Shown here piece by piece: positions 4,994 to 37,813 of a stretch of 64,000 nt of DNA; position 1 is the stretch's first letter, and the number at the start of each line of letters is the position of its first letter. Origin of the DNA: Pythium myriotylum (lineage: Eukaryota; Oomycota; Peronosporomycetes; Pythiales; Pythiaceae); NCBI GenBank assembly GCA_023091665.1, contig JALJCQ010000030.1, forward strand, positions 2,978,501-3,042,500, read 5' to 3'. Both the position numbers and the translations under genes were made by a program. The notes under the pieces are model-generated. The model had not been told where the DNA came from, made no database searches, and saw only the letters and a program-made list of their open reading frames with translations.

Positions 4994-6408
4994 ATGAACA
5001 TGAACAGCAGCAGCATGAACATGTCGATGTCGACGCGCATGACGATCGAAGAACTGGCCACGAGGCCGCCGAGGCCGAGGCCGACGCGCGTGGCGCCACG
5101 ACCGCTGCGGCCGGTGCCGCCGGTGAGGCCCATGACGGCGCGCGAGTACCAGACGGCCGTGACGCGCATGGCGTTCCAGGCGGCGTGCGCGGTGAACCGA
5201 ACGCGCAAGGCGAGCGCGGCGTTCGCGCAGCCGCAAGTGGCCGAGATGCACGCGCTGCTGGCGCACCACATGGACGTTTTGTGTGTGGAGCTGCTGACCG
5301 CGGCCAAGTGGATCGCGCGCAACGAGGCGGAGCTCACGATGCGCTCGAACGAGATCGCGCACCTGCAGGCGGCGGCGGAGGCCGCTGCGTGGGACACGGA
5401 CGAGGAGGAGGAGTACTACTGCTACGAAGAGGAGGAGGAGAACGAAGGAGAAGAGGAGGCGTCGATTGACCTGAAGGAGGACAAGAGCCGCCTACCCATG
5501 CCGAGCGAGGCTGAGGAGACCGCCGAGTTGGGCTGCGAATCAGAGACAGCCGAACAAGAAGACGAACAAGACGGCGGAAAAGACGACGCCAAGATCGACG
5601 TGGACGTGGACGTCGACGAGGCAGTCCAAGATGGCCTCGATGGCCTCGACAAGGCGGCCGACGATGGAGAAGCGCTCTCGCAGGGCACGGAAGAAGAACA
5701 GGTGCAGGTGCACCGTCACGAGGCAGACTCGACGGAGCAGCTTGACTTTGCGAGCTGGGTCTCTGTCTGTGTATCTGTCTTGGAAGAGGAAGAGGAAGAG
5801 GAAACGACCGAGTTGGCGCCGCTGGTGTGCGCGCCGGAGTCGGAGAGCGAGACCGAGAATGACAGCGAAAGCAATAGCGAGAGCAATAGCGAGTGCGATT
5901 GCGAGTTGGAGGGCGCTGCGACGTCTTGCGGCGAGGCAGGAACGGCGCCTGTCTCAGCTGAAGTTGTGTTGGCTTCACGTGAAGACTTGGGCACGGCGAC
6001 CGAGACCGACACAGAGACCGATACAGAGCCAGAGGCAGAGACCGAGCCCACGGCATCTGCGTCGACACGCGGATCTCCAGCCGCGCGCGAGGAGCCGCGA
6101 GTGTCGCGCATTGTCGCGCCGAAGATCTTGCCTCTTCGAGGCGTGCGTCGTCCGTTGGGCACGTTGGCCCGCGCGAAGACCACGACCGCGACAGGCGCTC
6201 CGGCGATGACTACTCGATTTGGATGGAAGCATCCAGTCGTCATGGAAGCCGTCCGCGCTCCGGCAGTCGTTCACGTCGCGCGCTTCGATCCAGTCGCTGA
6301 AGCCGTGTGTGCCGTGAAGAAACAAGAAAGGCCGACTCCGGCTCTGGTTGTGGATGCTGCACGATTACTTGCACCTCCACACACGACAAAGAAGAAAGTA
6401 GTAGAGGC

Positions 6409-11926: not shown

Positions 11927-13552
11927 TCACGCACCCTCGAGGCGTACGTATCCAGCTCGTCGCACTGTATGCGTATCGTTGATAAGCCCAAACTTGACCA
12001 CCCCCAGCAGTACAACGCAGACAAACACGACAGGGACGAGCACGAACGGGGACGAATGATACTCGTCATTGGCTGCAACTCGGTCCTCCACAATACTTTC
12101 TTCGGCAGCAGCGTAGCTGAAATTCGACTCGGTTTCGTCGGTGGGCAGGCCAAGCCACTTGGTCAAGTACTTCAGGATTTCTGCTTGTTGCTTCTTGAGC
12201 GGCTCAGGGGAGTTTGGATTCGGTGCGTGGAGATCGCCGCAGTGGCCACAGAGATCACACTTGGCGAGGAACGCGACTTCATCGTCCGCGAGTGTGTGGA
12301 GCACCGATGCGCGCTGCCACGGGTCATCACCGCCGTTGGCGAAGAAGACGTTATGGGCCTTTGGTTCGGCTCCTCCGTACAGCTGAATGATCTCCTGGAC
12401 GCCCTTAGCCGGGTCCACAACGTCACCGAATATAGCATGGCACTGCTTCAAATGGTAGTCCAGATTCACGATAGACGATCGAAGGCTGCCCTTCGAGGGC
12501 GCAACCTGGAAATAAGCCACCTGCGAGCACTTCTGCCAGCGCCACGAACGCACGTCAGCCCAGCGGCTCTTGTCTTGCGCGAGACACGTCGTGTCGTAGA
12601 AACAGCCGCTTCCAAATGCCGCTCCATACATGTCAATCACGAACTTCGCAAATTCGTGCGGCAGCGAGAGCTTGTTATCCACGGCGTGGATCACGGCCGA
12701 GCACACGACGTCCTTGTGGCCATATTGAACAGCCATGGCGGCGGCGTCCGCGAGCATGTAAAAGAAGTCAGCATCACACAAGTCCTGGGCGCCCAGCAGG
12801 CTTTTGACGCTCGTGCCATTGCCCTTCTTGATCTCATCCTCGAAGGCCGCGGTCGTCAGACGCAGAGCGTCGGCGCACTTCTCACCGGCCGACTCGGCCA
12901 CTTGCTCGTCGAAGCCGTGGAACTCGTACACAGGAAGCACGACGCCCGAAGACGATAGTGCCGCGACCGTCGTGTTCGGGTAGGCCACACGGAACCAGGC
13001 CGCGAGCGCACCCGGGTAGGATCCGCCGACAGCCACCCACTTGGTCGGCGCGCTCAAGTGGTGTGCCTCGTACTGTTCCTTGAAGTACTTGAGGTCGGCG
13101 AGCGCCTGCTGCACCGTGAGAAAGCGGTAGTTCTCGGTCGAGAGGTCAGCGTTCGGGATGCTCTTGCCGTAGAAGCGGTGCTCGAGTGCGAGGATCTTGG
13201 CCCCCCACTTCTGTGCCAGCGTCTCGACGAACCCTGTCGGCGGCTTGTCCATCGAGCCTTCGCCGCCGATGTAGAGGATCACGGGCGAGCCGGGGCCTTT
13301 GTAGAACGTGTTGACCTCGTAGAAACGTTGCTGGTAAGTTGCGTCGTCGTCCGAGAAGTGGTCGACGCGCTGCGTGAACCAGAGCTCAGGCGACGCGACG
13401 GTGAAGAGACCGTGGGTCTCGGCCTGGATCATCGCCCAGAGACGGCCGTGGCGAGCATGCGGAGGCAGATCCGACGCCCACACGTCGCAGACACTTGCGC
13501 TCAGCGCCAGCAGCAGCAGCGCCGTCGCGAGAGGGCGAAGAAGGCGCGGCAT
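11927..13552 (-). CDS. S28-family serine carboxypeptidase (lysosomal Pro-X / DPP2 type)
   Basis: Single exon, 541 aa. A signal peptide is followed by the S28 alpha/beta-hydrolase fold: the family start WFTQRVDHF, then ILYIGGEGS, LEHRFYGKS, nucleophile box GGSYPG (Ser about 178), NGGDDPW (Asp) and CGHCGDLH (His), so the full catalytic triad is present. These enzymes remove C-terminal residues after proline or N-terminal dipeptides, in acidic vacuoles or outside the cell. Unusually there is a hydrophobic segment about 30-40 residues before the end (LVPVVFVCVVLLGVV) followed by a short basic tail, suggesting a type I membrane anchor. The start is the first ATG; codons further upstream are open but contain no ATG. 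It is divergent with the macro-domain gene, and a CCAAT sequence (about 13633) lies in the shared upstream region. Confidence 0.93.
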   Translation of the reverse strand: MPRLLRPLATALLLLALSASVCDVWASDLPPHARHGRLWAMIQAETHGLFTVASPELWFTQRVDHFSDDDATYQQRFYEVNTFYKGPGSPVILYIGGEGSMDKPPTGFVETLAQKWGAKILALEHRFYGKSIPNADLSTENYRFLTVQQALADLKYFKEQYEAHHLSAPTKWVAVGGSYPGALAAWFRVAYPNTTVAALSSSGVVLPVYEFHGFDEQVAESAGEKCADALRLTTAAFEDEIKKGNGTSVKSLLGAQDLCDADFFYMLADAAAMAVQYGHKDVVCSAVIHAVDNKLSLPHEFAKFVIDMYGAAFGSGCFYDTTCLAQDKSRWADVRSWRWQKCSQVAYFQVAPSKGSLRSSIVNLDYHLKQCHAIFGDVVDPAKGVQEIIQLYGGAEPKAHNVFFANGGDDPWQRASVLHTLADDEVAFLAKCDLCGHCGDLHAPNPNSPEPLKKQQAEILKYLTKWLGLPTDETESNFSYAAAEESIVEDRVAANDEYHSSPFVLVPVVFVCVVLLGVVKFGLINDTHTVRRAGYVRLEGA

Positions 13553-22343: not shown

Positions 22344-23969
22344 CTAACAGCCTGGCCCACCGACGATACGTGAGCATGAAGTGCTCGGGATGAAAGTGAG
22401 AACGTTCAAGAATGTTGAGTAAAGCAGGAGGATGACTGAGAACACGACGATTGTAAGCGATGCCACCTTCGTGAACCCTCCATACATGCGCATGTGCTGC
22501 GCATCCAGCTTCTGCCGCGGCAAGAAGAAAAGCCCGAATACTGCGAGAGCATTGAGCCCATAGTTGAACATGAGCGTACCGAAGATCGCGTTCCGAGCGT
22601 ACGAGTCATCGAACTTGATCTTAGATGGGGAGTAGAAGTTTTGCGCCTGGAATATACCCTGCGCGTTGGTAGCCACGAAAATGGCAAGCAGTCGCTGAAG
22701 AGAAGATGCAATACCGACGATAGCCCCCTCCGAGCCTTCCTGAACGATCTCCGTGAGCGGGATAAGGTTCGAGACGACGCTGATACCATCTGCGATGGTA
22801 GCGACTGCCATGATTGATCGGTAAACATAGTGATCACGACTCACATCGTAAGAGACGATGGCTGTTGTGATCACAGACGGCACAATCTGCAAGAGTGGTG
22901 CAAGGAAGAAAAACCAACGCCATGGACGGTTTAGAAAGCCGTATCGCCACAGCAACACGCCGGCAAGCATCATGGCCTCCGTAACTGCGCGCGTCGCGAG
23001 AGAGTTGTCTTTGGTCGCGCCTGCCCACCCAAGCACCGTCATTGCTGGCGTCGTGAAGCGAATGCTGAGGAAGAGCACAAAGAACGAGATGAAGACGAGC
23101 GTGCGCCAAACCGCTTTTTGTTGCAGGATGCGCCAGCAAATCTGAGCACGGACAGTGAACGGGTCGGAAAGCGAGTAGTGCTCCTCTCTCCAGTACCGGA
23201 AAATGAGCGGTACAGGTAACGCCGTCACAACGGCCGAGATGTAGAGAGCCGTGGACAGCTTTACCCGCGGCACTCCGGGTGTCGTACCCAACACGTAGTA
23301 CGTGAAGCAGTACGTGAAGAACGAGGAAAAGCGTCGAACAATCAAGTAGCTGGCCTGGATCGCTCCACGGATTGCGAGTGGTTCTCGTTGCGATAACTCA
23401 ATCGTACGCGTGTGGACACAAACGTTGACGAACATGCTCCCAAAGCCTGAGATGACGATCATTGTGATGATCACCCCAAAAGCGACGTTGCGGTCTTTCT
23501 TGGACTTGTGCGATTCCATGTACGAGGCTGCAATGGCGATTCCGATTGTCGCTACGACATTCAGGGCGAGCCCGATGAGCACATATGCCTTTCGTCGGAG
23601 ACCGAAAATAGGGACGCAGTCCGAGAGCAATCCAATGAGGAAGGCAAGACAGAAGGGGAGATCTGTGAGTCGCTGTACCGAGAGTTGTTCCTGCGGCGTG
23701 AGCTGAGTTGCAAGCAGTGGCGACGTGAGGTAGAGCAAGACGAGAATCGAAAAGACAGACGAAACGGTGGCTCCGAAGAGACCAGCACACTCGAGCGAGT
23801 AGAAACTGACAGGCTCGCCGCGACGAAGACTGCCATACAGTTGTGAATCGTAGTGCAGTGGTACGAGACCACCGCTGGTGTTCTCGAGCGTGTCGATGCT
23901 ATCGGGCGACTTGAAGGAATCGAATCCTGGCTGCAACATGACTGCTGGGCTCAGTTTCTTCATCTCCAT
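22344..23969 (-). CDS. Folate-biopterin transporter (FBT/BT1)-family membrane protein
   Basis: Single exon, 541 aa, about twelve transmembrane segments. The family signature is the segment LTDLPFCLAFLIGLLSDCVPIFGLRRKAY, shown here by its parts LSDCVPIFG and GLRRKAYVLIG, equivalent to the SD-x-P-x-GYRRKPY motif of the FBT/BT1 branch of the major facilitator superfamily. Later blocks VRFTTPAMTVLG-like (seen as IRFTTPAMTVLGW) and SEGAIVGIASSLQRL also fit. Oomycetes have many such transporters; substrates may be pterins, folate or other small metabolites. The start ATG (23967-23969, MEMKKLSP) is the first in frame; codons upstream to 24218 are open without an ATG. It converges with gene B, 128 bp between stops. 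Confidence 0.85.
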   Translation of the reverse strand: MEMKKLSPAVMLQPGFDSFKSPDSIDTLENTSGGLVPLHYDSQLYGSLRRGEPVSFYSLECAGLFGATVSSVFSILVLLYLTSPLLATQLTPQEQLSVQRLTDLPFCLAFLIGLLSDCVPIFGLRRKAYVLIGLALNVVATIGIAIAASYMESHKSKKDRNVAFGVIITMIVISGFGSMFVNVCVHTRTIELSQREPLAIRGAIQASYLIVRRFSSFFTYCFTYYVLGTTPGVPRVKLSTALYISAVVTALPVPLIFRYWREEHYSLSDPFTVRAQICWRILQQKAVWRTLVFISFFVLFLSIRFTTPAMTVLGWAGATKDNSLATRAVTEAMMLAGVLLWRYGFLNRPWRWFFFLAPLLQIVPSVITTAIVSYDVSRDHYVYRSIMAVATIADGISVVSNLIPLTEIVQEGSEGAIVGIASSLQRLLAIFVATNAQGIFQAQNFYSPSKIKFDDSYARNAIFGTLMFNYGLNALAVFGLFFLPRQKLDAQHMRMYGGFTKVASLTIVVFSVILLLYSTFLNVLTFIPSTSCSRIVGGPGC

Positions 23970-31093: not shown

Positions 31094-33160
31094 ATGCGAG
31101 CGCTGACCGAGTTCCTGCTGCGCGAGGCGCTGGCGCAGCTGCTGGACGACCCGACGCCGCGCAACGTGGCGCAGGCCATGGGCGGCGTCCACGCGCAGGA
31201 GGCCGCGCTGCTCGCGGAGAGCCAGACCGAAGAGGCGACCGAGGAGAGCGAGTCGCAGACGCCGTTCGTGAGCAGCACGACCCACCGCGTGATGATGGTG
31301 CGCGCGACCAACTCCAAGCAGCAGCTCCTCACGCTCGTGGACCGCGGCTTCTCGGTGGACGCCTTCGTGCCGCAGGCGCTCGTGGACGAACTGCGCGCCA
31401 CCAAGCGCTACAAGTCGATCTCGCGCTTGCGTGGTAGCGTTGTGCGCGTCGAGAAATACCACTTTGCCACGCCGGCGCAGTGCCTCGCGACCCAACAGGA
31501 GCGCAGGAACACAACAAGCGTGTCGACTCGGCTGGCAAACAGTCGACAGAGCAAGCTGTGGCTCTTCGTGGAGTCGCTCGCGGTTATTGACGACAGCGAG
31601 CTGGCGGTGAACCCGACGCCTTTCCTGGAAGAGCACGAAGGAATCGCGAAACAGTTGAACGCGATGTCCTCCTCCGCCTTGGAGAACCGCTTGGCGCGTC
31701 GACAAGGATTGGCGACTGAATCGATCGTTGCCGCACCGTCTCCAGCGAAGCGCTTCGGCAATAACAGCCCTCTTATTGATGAAGAGGTTAACATTCCTGA
31801 GGACCAAGAACGTGAGATAGACACAGACGGATGGAACTTCGAAGGTGAGCAAGCTGGGCCAACAGACTCGCAGCTAATCGCTGAGAACGGGCCTGTGTCG
31901 GGAACGGATTCGCAGCCTACGAGTAGTGGCATCACAATCGTCTCGAGTAGCGGCAACACTGTAGTGTCCAGCAGCGACACGACGCCACCTGCGCAGGGTC
32001 CACGGATCGTTGTACTGGAGTCTGAACCGCAAGTCTCGTCACAGTCCCAAGTAGAAGTTGACGCATCTGTTCCTGACAGTCAGGTTGTTCACTTCCAAGC
32101 GGAGAATCTTCAGAAAGCCTTCATCGAATGCAGTGACACCGACAGTGAAGAAGGAGCAGACGAAGACGATGAGCAATCAGCAGCGGCTCAAACCAGCCAG
32201 GACCAGCCAATGCCACCGAGCAGTACCGGAAAAAGTAGCGAGAACCTACCGGAACGTACCAGTTTGTCTGCAACTGACTCGGAGTCAACTCAAACGGTTG
32301 GTGAGCTGTCGCAGCAACTGCTTACCCAGGCGCAGTCTTTGAGTGCTAGTTTGCCGCTTGGTGAGGCCACCCAGGCTTCCGAAACCTCAGAGGCCCATGG
32401 AGAGTTCGTCGGCGTTGTCCAGGCTGACCATGATGAGCCGATCACCCAAGCTGGTGATGGAAGCCAAGGCGCCGACGTCCAAGTGGATACCGATTCTGCC
32501 CAGAATATTGAGTGGAACACGCAGGCTCAGGACCTAAGCCAGCAATCCGAAGAGCCATCTGATACGGAAACACTGGAGGTGGAATATGATGTAGACGGAG
32601 AACCAGGTGCGGATGGCACCAGTGCTGACGAAGGTCGGGAACGTGTCACAATGAGTCAGCAAGACGGCCAGCCCGACCACTGGATGGATACGCAGCCAAG
32701 AGACTCGACTCCAACAAAACGCCCGACTCCAAGTAAGCGCCCTCGGTCGCCCGCTGAGTCGTCACCGCTCTCTGAAGGAGGGCACGTCACTCAGCGCAGG
32801 AAGCGATGGCGATCCACGGCCGCCTCAGTTGAATCTCAGCATTTATCCCCTCAACCTCAGGAGTCAAGCACCAGTGCTGCTCCCGTACAGCCACTGCCCC
32901 AGGCTAAAAGATCGAACTCGTCGCTTGCCCGAGCCGCCGCCCCGGATCCTGCTGTGTTTGCGTCGTTCCTCGCGTCCAGTGACTCCAGGGCCTCTACTTC
33001 GATGTCGGCAGCTGCACGATCGTTGGGAATATCGTCGTTCAACAAACGAGCGACCGACCCGCAACTACAGAAGCTGCGGCCGTCCAAGCGATATGAGCAC
33101 TTGTTACCGCCGTTCGACCTGAACTCCATTTCGGACCTTATCGCGAACAAGAAGAATTAA
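31094..33160 (+). CDS. Candidate shelterin TPP1/ACD-like OB-fold protein with SQ/TQ-rich tail
   Basis: Single exon, 688 aa. An N-terminal helix (1-40) is followed by a block at about 64-168 whose strand pattern and landmarks resemble the telomeric OB-fold of TPP1/ACD: RVMMVRAT, then LLTLVDRGFSVDAFVPQAL (nucleic-acid-binding-type strand pair and helix), SRLRGSVVRVEKYHF and KLWLFVESLAVI. The remaining 500 residues are disordered, acidic and carry about 20 SQ/TQ dipeptides (for example SSQSQVE, STQTVGELSQQ, NTQAQDLSQQ), the cluster type phosphorylated by ATM/ATR kinases. A basic patch (KRPTPSKRPRSP) fits nuclear import. The C-terminus ends in an ordered-looking KRYEHLLPPFDLNSI motif that could be a docking peptide. 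The TPP1 assignment is an inference from pattern only. It converges with the membrane protein gene, 77 bp apart. Confidence 0.55.
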   Translation: MRALTEFLLREALAQLLDDPTPRNVAQAMGGVHAQEAALLAESQTEEATEESESQTPFVSSTTHRVMMVRATNSKQQLLTLVDRGFSVDAFVPQALVDELRATKRYKSISRLRGSVVRVEKYHFATPAQCLATQQERRNTTSVSTRLANSRQSKLWLFVESLAVIDDSELAVNPTPFLEEHEGIAKQLNAMSSSALENRLARRQGLATESIVAAPSPAKRFGNNSPLIDEEVNIPEDQEREIDTDGWNFEGEQAGPTDSQLIAENGPVSGTDSQPTSSGITIVSSSGNTVVSSSDTTPPAQGPRIVVLESEPQVSSQSQVEVDASVPDSQVVHFQAENLQKAFIECSDTDSEEGADEDDEQSAAAQTSQDQPMPPSSTGKSSENLPERTSLSATDSESTQTVGELSQQLLTQAQSLSASLPLGEATQASETSEAHGEFVGVVQADHDEPITQAGDGSQGADVQVDTDSAQNIEWNTQAQDLSQQSEEPSDTETLEVEYDVDGEPGADGTSADEGRERVTMSQQDGQPDHWMDTQPRDSTPTKRPTPSKRPRSPAESSPLSEGGHVTQRRKRWRSTAASVESQHLSPQPQESSTSAAPVQPLPQAKRSNSSLARAAAPDPAVFASFLASSDSRASTSMSAAARSLGISSFNKRATDPQLQKLRPSKRYEHLLPPFDLNSISDLIANKKN

Positions 33161-34810: not shown

Positions 34811-37800
34811 ATGAGCGCGCCCACGCCGCACTACCTCGACCGCGGCGAGCGCAGCCACTCGCGGCTCAGCTCCGTGGCCGTCGAGACCGCCGACATCCAG
34901 CTCGACGAGCGCAAGATGTACGCCGTCGAGTGGTGCGACGGCGGCTTCGGCTTCACGCTCACGCCCGTCAACTCGGACCGCGGCACCGTCATGCTGCTCG
35001 CGAGACGCACGGCGCGCCGCGAGCAGCTCGAGGCCTCGGGGCTCCACGAGGTCGTGCCCGGCGACCTGCTCGTGGCTATTGGCGAGGAAAAAGTCTACCA
35101 CCTCGGCGCCGAGCACGCCGCGACGTTCCTGCGCTCCGTGCAGAAGCCCGTGCGCCTCACGCTCCAGTTGTCGCCGTACGGCAACCAGGCCAAGCAGCTC
35201 CCCGACCTCGCACCCAACGAGTACCACTACCTCTGGGAGGACGGTCCGCTCGGCATCGTGCTCACGATGGACCCGAAGAGCAAGCTGCCGATGGTCAAGC
35301 GCCTCTCGGACAAGGCCAACGAGATTGTGCGCCGCGAAGTCCAAATCAGTGACCAGCTCATGTACGCCAACGACGTTCCTACCAGCGAGTACTCGATGGA
35401 CGAGGTCATGTCCATCCTGCGCGAGATGCCCAAGCCCGTGCTTCTGCGCTTCCGTAAGCAACTTCAGGATGACCACCTTGTTGAGCTTCCTGAGCTCGCC
35501 GAAAACGAGTACGAGTTCCTGTGGGACTACGGACCGTTGGGGCTTGTCATTGGCATGTCACGCAGCGGTCTGCCATTTGTGCGATCGTTCACGGGGCTTG
35601 GCACCTCGCGGCAGCTGAACCTTGTCCAGGAAGACGACGAGATCGTCATGGTCAACGACAAGTCAGCGATTGAGGTCGGCTTCCGCGAGACAATGCAGTA
35701 CCTCATGAATGTGCCCAAGCCCGCAGTGCTGCGATTCCGCCGGAAGATGCGGAACGTGGACGAGCGCCTCAGCATGAGAGTCACGACCTCAGCGCGGCCA
35801 TCCACGCCAGGCTACCTGAAGCCTGGAGTCCCAGAATGCGAAGCCCCACTATCCCCAGTTCCGCCTCTCGGCGCTTCAACCCACAACTTTAGCGTGGGCG
35901 AGCCGCCACTAAGCCCCCAAGTTCGAGTGTCGCTTGATCGATCTCGCTTCCGGAGCGTCAGCAGTGCCAAAAGCAGCAGCACCGACGACCGAAGCAGCCA
36001 GAGCTCGCTTCCACAGGACCGTCGATCTGGTGCGACGGCTGTTGCTGCTCGACAGACCATTCCAAAAGGCGAGCGAATCAGCGAAAATGACGACCTGGTC
36101 TTTGAGGACGCACGAAGCAGTGCCGGAGGCGAAGACCGTGAGACTGCGATCCTGCCGCCCGATCCAAGGACAAACAAAGCTAGTGATGCGAGTCGGAGCA
36201 GTATCTTCACATTCGCGTTCGACGAAGGACCACCGCCTGCCTCAGACCCTCCACGTCCCCGACGCATTTCGGCCAAGACTGGCTCGATGCCACCAGATCC
36301 GATGGCAGAGCCGCTGGTGCAGCATGAAGATCTCAGTCGTTCCCAGTCGTTCCACCCGAGTACAATGACACCAGAGGCTCCTGTCTTCGTTCCGTTGCCA
36401 GAGCCTGTGAAGGAACGCAACAGCACTCATGCAAAACCCGCTCCCGAGCCAACTGCTCACACAAGCAAGCCTGCCCTTGATACGGCAGAGTTGATCGCAC
36501 AGCCAGCTGCCGCCACAGCTCCAGAACCACCTGCACGCGTGAGCAAGCCAGGTATTGATACGGCCGAACTCGTCGCCGAACCCGTTCCCGTCGCTACAGT
36601 CTCAAGACCACCACCTGCTCGAAACAGCAAGCCGGCGGTCGATACTGCGGAGCTCGTTGCGGAATCTGCTCCAGTTGCGACAGTGTCAAGGTCACAACCG
36701 ACTCGAAACAGTAAGCCTGCGGTTGATACTGCTGAGCTTGTCGCTGAACCAGCTACTGTCGCAACAGTATCAAGACCCCAGCCTGTACGCAACAACAAGC
36801 CAGCTGTTGACATTGCCGAGCTTGTTGCTGAGCCTGCCGTGAAAGCTCCTCAGCGAAAGTACGTGGATACGGCCGAGTTGGTCGCAGATCCCTCACCGCC
36901 GAAGAGCCCCGTGGATAACCAACGCGAAGCTCCTTCGCCTGTTCCCAAGCCTGCCCAGCCGGCCAAGACTCGCCCTTCGCCCGCGGCCAACCAGTATGAA
37001 GACACTGCCGACCTTGTTGCTGATCCGGCACCAAAGCCTGCTAAGAAAGCCTATGTCGATACTGCCGAATTGGTGGCTGAGCCTGCGAAGGCGGACAAGA
37101 CCGTCGCAAAGAGTAAGCAGGCGTATGTTGACACGGCTGAACTCGTGGCTGAACCAGCTCCAGCCAAGAAGGCTGCCCCACCGAAGAAGCAGTACGTGGA
37201 TACAGCGGATCTTGTTGCCGAACCTGTTCGCGCACCACCGGCGAAGAGAGAGTTTGTCGATACGGCGGACCTTGTTGCTGTTCCTGCGGCTGCAGCTTCT
37301 GCACCAAAGCAGAAGCAACCGATCATTGATACGGCTGAGCTTTTCGCGGAGCCTCCGGCTCCAAAGCCTGCCCAGGTCGCCTCGACTCCAACCCCGCCTC
37401 CAGCTTCTGTTCCTGTTCCTGCTCCTGCTCCCGCCTCGACACCGACTCCTGCTACCCCAGTGGAGAAGAAACCGGTGCCAGCACCAGCACCAGCACCGGC
37501 TCCTGCGAAGTCGGTAGCTTCAGACGGTGGCGAGTTCTTTACCGTCGACCCTGCTGCGTTCTACACGGTGCAGTGGACCGAAGGTCCCTTCGGCTCCACC
37601 GTGCGTGAAGCCGAGTCGACTACAGGTCCGGTCATGCTGATCACGAAGCGAACAGGCAAGCAGACGTGTGCCGGCCTGCGCCGTATCGCTGTGGGAGACA
37701 TCCTCGTGCGCATCGGCGACAAGGACGTTTGGTCGATGGGTTTCGAGAAGGCGACGCGGTACCTGCGTAAAGTGCCCAAGCCCGTGCCGCTGACGTTCCA

Positions 37801-37813
37801 GGCCATCGACTAA
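34811..37813 (+). CDS. Multi-PDZ scaffold with twelve DTAELVAEP-type repeats (1000 aa)
   Basis: Single exon. Three PDZ-like domains stand in a row at about 38-120, 136-220 and 231-312, and a fourth closes the protein at 916-1000. Each shows a W-x-(D/E)-G-(P/G)-(L/F)-G carboxylate-loop equivalent (WCDGGFGFTL, WEDGPLGIVL, WDYGPLGLVI, WTEGPFGSTV), a GD or DE turn before the last strands, and a KPV-x-L-x-F/L end. The 320-900 linker is Ser/Pro-rich and disordered, and between about 556 and 845 carries twelve copies of a nine-residue unit (consensus VDTAELVAE plus Pro) separated by Pro/Ala/Lys spacers. No transmembrane segment or signal. A cytoplasmic scaffold is inferred. The repeats may be internal ligands or docking sites. 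The ATG is in good context (CTCCGCCATGA). Confidence 0.82.
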   Translation: MSAPTPHYLDRGERSHSRLSSVAVETADIQLDERKMYAVEWCDGGFGFTLTPVNSDRGTVMLLARRTARREQLEASGLHEVVPGDLLVAIGEEKVYHLGAEHAATFLRSVQKPVRLTLQLSPYGNQAKQLPDLAPNEYHYLWEDGPLGIVLTMDPKSKLPMVKRLSDKANEIVRREVQISDQLMYANDVPTSEYSMDEVMSILREMPKPVLLRFRKQLQDDHLVELPELAENEYEFLWDYGPLGLVIGMSRSGLPFVRSFTGLGTSRQLNLVQEDDEIVMVNDKSAIEVGFRETMQYLMNVPKPAVLRFRRKMRNVDERLSMRVTTSARPSTPGYLKPGVPECEAPLSPVPPLGASTHNFSVGEPPLSPQVRVSLDRSRFRSVSSAKSSSTDDRSSQSSLPQDRRSGATAVAARQTIPKGERISENDDLVFEDARSSAGGEDRETAILPPDPRTNKASDASRSSIFTFAFDEGPPPASDPPRPRRISAKTGSMPPDPMAEPLVQHEDLSRSQSFHPSTMTPEAPVFVPLPEPVKERNSTHAKPAPEPTAHTSKPALDTAELIAQPAAATAPEPPARVSKPGIDTAELVAEPVPVATVSRPPPARNSKPAVDTAELVAESAPVATVSRSQPTRNSKPAVDTAELVAEPATVATVSRPQPVRNNKPAVDIAELVAEPAVKAPQRKYVDTAELVADPSPPKSPVDNQREAPSPVPKPAQPAKTRPSPAANQYEDTADLVADPAPKPAKKAYVDTAELVAEPAKADKTVAKSKQAYVDTAELVAEPAPAKKAAPPKKQYVDTADLVAEPVRAPPAKREFVDTADLVAVPAAAASAPKQKQPIIDTAELFAEPPAPKPAQVASTPTPPPASVPVPAPAPASTPTPATPVEKKPVPAPAPAPAPAKSVASDGGEFFTVDPAAFYTVQWTEGPFGSTVREAESTTGPVMLITKRTGKQTCAGLRRIAVGDILVRIGDKDVWSMGFEKATRYLRKVPKPVPLTFQAID

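Follow-up and report, generated by a model that had tools for sequence, protein, structure and literature searches.

The stretch of DNA analysed here (the window) comprises 64,000 bp of a Pythium myriotylum contig, the whole assembly amounting to 58.7 Mb in 55 contigs. The gene of interest occupies positions 31094..33160 of the forward strand, starting at G000:C30:3009594 on the genome, and the list of open reading frames (ORFs) in the window gives it as one intron-free frame of 688 amino acids (aa) plus stop codon. We propose that it very probably encodes an oomycete telomere protein of the TPP1/Tpz1 type, that is, most likely a member of a known family and not a new kind of system. In humans and yeasts, TPP1 forms a pair with POT1 at the ends of chromosomes and recruits telomerase to these.

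A protein search with the product returned 15 homologues with E-values from 9e-51 to 3e-7 (threshold 0.001), given which we regard the ORF as a real gene. Twelve of the homologue rows come from 11 species of Phytophthora, Nothophytophthora, Peronospora, Hyaloperonospora and Bremia, with Phytophthora cactorum contributing two (P0007 and P0012); the other three are contigs. Only the 7987 candidates with the most words in common were scored, so that the absence of other oomycetes means little. Eleven of the 15 start within a few residues of the window protein, P0002 starts later, and P0013 to P0015 are without the N-terminus. No further copy of the N-terminal domain (N-domain) was found in the genome at E-values up to 1, and a database search with profile A1 returned 13 proteins, none beyond the known homologues. 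The UniRef label "Telomere replication protein EST3" is attached to P0005 and, going by a partial label, to P0010, so that the identity of the family is already half-labelled by an automatic name; the visible names of the remainder are hypothetical, uncharacterized or unnamed.

The family alignment consists of 16 rows, the window protein and its homologues. Its conserved blocks are an N-terminal helix, an oligonucleotide/oligosaccharide-binding (OB) domain with two helices, residues ~220-268, an island at 326-348 and a C-terminal motif, outside which the sequence is variable and the structure prediction of low confidence. Residues ~220-268, which were missing from an earlier prediction made from the window's letters (the original prediction), are the best-conserved part besides the OB domain.

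The original prediction had placed a telomeric OB-fold of TPP1 type at residues ~64-168. The strings that it quoted are present, and AlphaFold2 (213 aa, 14 aligned rows) predicts the elements of an OB-fold in their proper order across residues 65-165, with strands at 65-73, 78-83, 86-91, 116-125 and 156-165 and a helix (94-104) between strands 3 and 4. The block-mean predicted local distance difference test (pLDDT) values of these strands are 74-90, the mean for the whole N-domain model being 63.7. By Foldseek and VIA-align the nearest solved structures are those of the TPP1/Est3/TEBP-beta group; Foldseek ranks Hansenula Est3 first (6q44, E 1.9e-4), and both TEBP-beta of Oxytricha and p50 of Tetrahymena are within the top 22 rows (chain G of 7lma and 7uy5, which we take to be p50). 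Ciliates, like oomycetes, belong to the SAR (stramenopiles, alveolates and Rhizaria) group. The helix at residues 2-17 may occupy the place of the region N-terminal to the OB domain (NOB) in TPP1 and Est3. In a register of our own, derived from the VIA-align end residues, E215, which with E169 represents the human TEL (glutamate- and leucine-rich) patch, is aligned with Ser168, where no conserved acid is found. The TEL patch of Hansenula Est3, as described in a passage of PMC7338525, likewise differs in charge, and the missing acid therefore does not decide membership. An Arg-bearing TEL patch is functional in S. pombe Tpz1, according to an excerpt of PMC4936895.

Downstream of the OB domain, residues 220-247 represent, by sequence match, a putative Pot1-interacting motif of the type found in fission-yeast Tpz1. 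The resemblance was first spotted by eye and had no place in the original prediction; the peptides compared are HWKNMTSLSIEECIIPKGQQ of Tpz1 (PDB 7cui_B), RFGNNSPLIDEEVNIPEDQE of the window protein and HFDDDHPLEDDDCIIPEDQE of P0013. Eight Tpz1 residues mutated at the Pot1 interface are described in part of PMC9333443, and these were taken as a fixed pattern. Five of the eight are matched at window residues 221-238, and none of 2000 shuffled versions of the window protein reached this score. The best pattern site coincides with the motif in 15 of the 16 rows, 14 of them with five matches (0-8 of 2000 shuffles did equally well) and P0001 with four (52 of 2000); P0012 is without the segment and has its best site, 4/8, elsewhere. 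A matrix was derived from the 15 oomycete rows that carry the segment. The Tpz1 peptide attains 15.5 bits on it, a score reached by 0 of 100,000 shuffles, 3 of 2,000,000 random 20-mers and 0 of 49,800 20-mers taken from the TPP1 proteins listed. Because the comparison was made after a look by eye, and against two known interfaces, a correction is called for, and by our estimate the corrected chance of such a match would be roughly 1 in 1000 at most.

Substitution of Tpz1 L193, C198, I200 or P201 by Arg abolishes Pot1 binding in the two-hybrid assays described in PMC9333443 (excerpt). The corresponding residues are L227, V232, I234 and P235; the window protein thus differs from Tpz1 in having V in place of C198, this position being Cys in 14 of the 15 rows. 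The position of Tpz1 E197, which in the same text pairs with Pot1 Arg546, is acidic in 15 of 15. No part of human TPP1 matches the oomycete matrix (best 6.9 bits, within the OB domain), its POT1-binding stretch included, in line with a remark in PMC9333443 that, of three such interfaces, the human one diverges most. The motif begins ~17 residues beyond the last OB helix of the predicted structure, and a passage of PMC5394241 gives human TPP1 a 22-residue linker between OB and POT1-binding motif. Searched alone against PDB, the oomycete motif peptide found nothing at E-values up to 10. Further on, D258, S259, L261, I262, N265 and G266 of the stretch PTDSQLIAENGPV (residues 256-268) are invariant in all 16 rows, and this stretch possibly continues the POT1-binding one.

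A chance likeness would leave the OB resemblance at the level of the fold and the gene as one for an oomycete-specific nuclear protein of some other function. It draws on the motif being short and noticed by eye, and on shuffles that equal its pattern score, as many as 8 of 2000 where a row scores 5/8, but we hold it to be extremely improbable in view of the matrix statistics of the Tpz1 peptide, the position of the motif directly behind an OB domain of the TPP1/Est3/TEBP-beta group and the near-invariance of those residues that are important in Tpz1. The Tpz1-type motif turns the fold resemblance into a specific, testable claim. Like S. pombe Tpz1, the TPP1 orthologue of that species, the window protein has an N-terminal OB domain and then a Pot1-interacting motif, the comparison with Tpz1 being confined to the motif peptide and not extending to overall sequence. 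Two features of TPP1/Tpz1 proteins, an OB fold nearest to the structures of the family and a downstream Pot1-type motif, were found computationally, which supports the identity originally proposed; the predicted fold was not other than OB, and no profile placed the protein in another family.

The support from OB-domain sequence is weak, its profiles by themselves falling short of significance. The TPP1 profile PF10341 (gathering cut-off 26.5 bits) was found in one of 16 full-length rows, below cut-off (E 0.076), and was unlisted for the window protein itself, whether full-length or as N-domain. Among the 13 N-domains of alignment A2, which excludes P0012 (N-domain the same as in P0007) and P0014 and P0015 (without the OB part), five gave matches at consistent model positions (E 0.011-0.1, best 16.0 bits, under the cut-off). 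The detailed Pfam scan covered nine of these 13, and its reversed-sequence control produced spurious mtd_2nd matches that were equally strong (five of nine sequences, best E 0.0052); the PF10341 matches consequently count for something only in that the original prediction had already proposed TPP1. In a comparison with a profile of mammalian TPP1 (46 rows after thinning; of 201 matches 120 were listed, and those with names are mammals), 37 of 150 column shuffles reached the observed score, which is not significant. On the oomycete profile, the hidden Markov model (HMM) score of human TPP1 was not significant either, being equalled or exceeded in 65 of 1000 shuffles (721 gave a score), and that of TEBP-beta was at shuffle level (522 of 1000, 786 giving a score). 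With its accuracy threshold lowered, hhalign aligned both domains from one end to the other and in the order expected, which is not counted as evidence. Searching PDB sequences with the window protein, with the profile of the whole protein or with that of the N-domain returned no OB protein. The search of the genome in six frames with PF10341 gave no first-look candidate and is uninformative, and the NCBIfam scan yielded nothing useful.

Two further Pfam matches were rejected: one to splicing factor SF3b1, confined to the window protein and there to the disordered tail (1 of 16 rows; E 0.001, 19.9 bits, cut-off 25.1) as a matter of composition, and one to the HET domain in six of 13 N-domains (best E 0.024, under cut-off) as chance. 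That the gene codes for some other single-stranded DNA-binding or checkpoint OB protein, RPA70N-like or SSB-like, with a disordered tail and no telomere link, is very improbable. Rep-A_N (PF04057) was unlisted for all 13 N-domains at E-values up to 10 (HMMER filters drop most matches above 0.1), and such a protein would leave the Tpz1-type motif unexplained. In the same genome, matches to Rep-A_N, the RPA70 N-terminal domain, are clear on contig C11 and weak at G000:C9:2128571-2128765 (L009; E 7.8e-4, under cut-off), so that the gene described here does not code for this organism's RPA70. The weak match on C9 may belong to an RPA70 paralogue or to another gene with a Rep-A_N domain.

An Est3-like telomerase subunit, its OB domain lying in the telomerase particle, POT1 uninvolved and residues 220-247 serving otherwise, would account for the Hansenula Est3 structure being the top match, for the automatic EST3 name on two relatives and for the failure to find a POT1 in the genome. 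The strand 4-5 loop of the predicted OB domain is longer, as described for Est3 in part of PMC7338525. Est3 is, however, a small, single-OB protein (excerpt of PMC7619062), whereas the 688 aa of the window protein include a Tpz1-type Pot1 motif after the OB domain and ~400 disordered residues, far from the size of Est3; we consider this explanation quite improbable. Searching the genome for POT1 with PF02765, PF16686 and a human POT1 sequence yielded no candidate, and STN1 (PF10451) was not found; no control genome gave a match in either search, and these results are accordingly no evidence of absence.

To the gene, its predicted OB fold with the nearest structural group and the Tpz1-type motif, the same genome adds telomere repeats and a TERT with a TEN domain, on which the protein would dock. 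Contig C3 (2,525,440 bp) has TTTAGGG arrays at both ends, a telomere repeat known in oomycetes (passage in PMC7046594). Short TTTAGGG blocks are also present kilobases inward of the terminal arrays, at C3:460-10535 and C3:2521870-2525232, forming a subtelomeric patchwork. The TERT gene, on C12, shows an RNA-binding domain (E 7.4e-11), a reverse-transcriptase domain and, on its joined exons, TEN_TERT (E 3.4e-8); the best PDB match of the joined exons is human TERT (E 2.6e-9). In the alignment to the latter, human R132 is still Arg and K78 is opposite a Ser at the margin of the aligned region; the partner of K78 in human TPP1 is E215, according to an excerpt of PMC4359370, the residue that our register sets against Ser168. 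Loss of the charges of K78 and E215 would fit a contact changed on both sides, as judged from one species and a low-confidence column. A Cys-rich stretch, DCKHCAGEGTKLYC, lies in the reverse-transcriptase exon (L006 ~5320-5390, G000:C12), and predicted zinc-finger motifs in oomycete TERTs are described in part of PMC7619062.

For the remainder of the protein, a long disordered region with about 20 SQ/TQ dipeptides had been forecast; pLDDT is below 50 across nearly all of residues 270-661, and 21 dipeptides were counted, against a shuffle mean of 11.6 (4 of 2000 shuffles reach 21). P0013 and P0014 have 28 each (0 of 2000), P0015 has 17 (11 of 2000) and P0004 has 16 (13 of 2000). The cluster had also been taken for ATM/ATR substrates, which is supported in part only. 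Enrichment holds in these four rows and the window protein (at most 13 of 2000 shuffles) but not in the other 11 of the 16 (at least 55 of 2000), so that it is lineage-dependent and no family trait; a phosphorylation role is plausible in the enriched lineage. The C-terminal KRYEHLLPPF, seen beforehand as conserved-looking, does recur, in the form [KQ]R[YF]E..[FL]PP, in 12 of 16 rows. The features are collected in Table 1.

Table 1. Features of the gene and its product, with positions in the window.
Feature	Position	Strand	Basis
Whole gene, probable TPP1/Tpz1-type protein	31094..33160	+	ORF; 15 homologues; no second N-domain copy found in own genome
N-terminal helix, residues 2-17	31097..31144	+	Predicted helix, pLDDT ~50; family consensus TEFLLRELL
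OB-fold domain (predicted), residues 62-172	31277..31609	+	AlphaFold2 strands; Foldseek, VIA-align
Two helices past final OB strand, residues 182-203	31637..31702	+	Predicted structure; conserved
Putative Tpz1-type Pot1-interacting motif, residues 220-247 (core 220-239)	31751..31834	+	8-residue pattern; 7cui_B letters; matrix test
Conserved stretch, residues 256-268	31859..31897	+	Six residues identical in 16/16 rows
Disordered tail, residues 259-582 (18 SQ/TQ dipeptides out of 21)	31868..32839	+	Positions, shuffles; low pLDDT
Conserved tail island, residues 326-348, family DSQ..FQQENI.ETFV	32069..32137	+	Conservation profile; surrounding tail variable
Basic clusters like a nuclear localisation signal (by eye), residues 541-572	32714..32809	+	Read off alignment
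C-terminal motif and helix, residues 661-688 (KRYEHLLPPF...)	33074..33157	+	12/16 rows; predicted helix 676-686

Elsewhere in the window, an ORF of 1000 aa at 34811-37813 (+) encodes PDZ domains with many VDTAELVAEP-like repeat units in between. Two ORFs of equal length (541 aa), at 11927-13552 (-) and 22344-23969 (-), lie ~10 kb apart and, going by length, are possibly a duplicated gene.

Beyond the assignment to TPP1/Tpz1, we infer a POT1 partner, docking to TERT and regulation through the tail. The motif at 220-247 would clip into the OB3 groove of a POT1 seated on the TTTAGGG overhang, and the SQ/TQ tail and C-terminal KRYE..PP motif would tie in, or answer to, other telomere factors. Tentatively, and with somewhat less than even confidence, we suggest that oomycetes keep a POT1-TPP1-TERT recruitment axis with a fission-yeast-like L-x4-C-x-I-P-x2-Q POT1 clip. 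On this proposal the peptide interface, beyond the OB folds, would predate the split between fungi plus animals and stramenopiles, the TERT-facing charges would have changed together with TERT, and the tail would act, in one oomycete lineage, as an SQ/TQ switch for ATM/ATR-type kinases.

Judged by titles and the beginnings of abstracts, searches of the open-access literature brought up no description of an oomycete or stramenopile TPP1. A review reasoning from trypanosomes, in an excerpt of PMC10704157, places TPP1/POT1 and CST later than the homologues of TRF, RAP1 and TIN2. A more informative label would replace the automatic "EST3", and the gene would offer a handle on telomere maintenance in oomycetes, with the search for an oomycete POT1 becoming testable. 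If true, a stramenopile TPP1 with a Pot1 clip of the fission-yeast type would argue for an old POT1-TPP1 pair.
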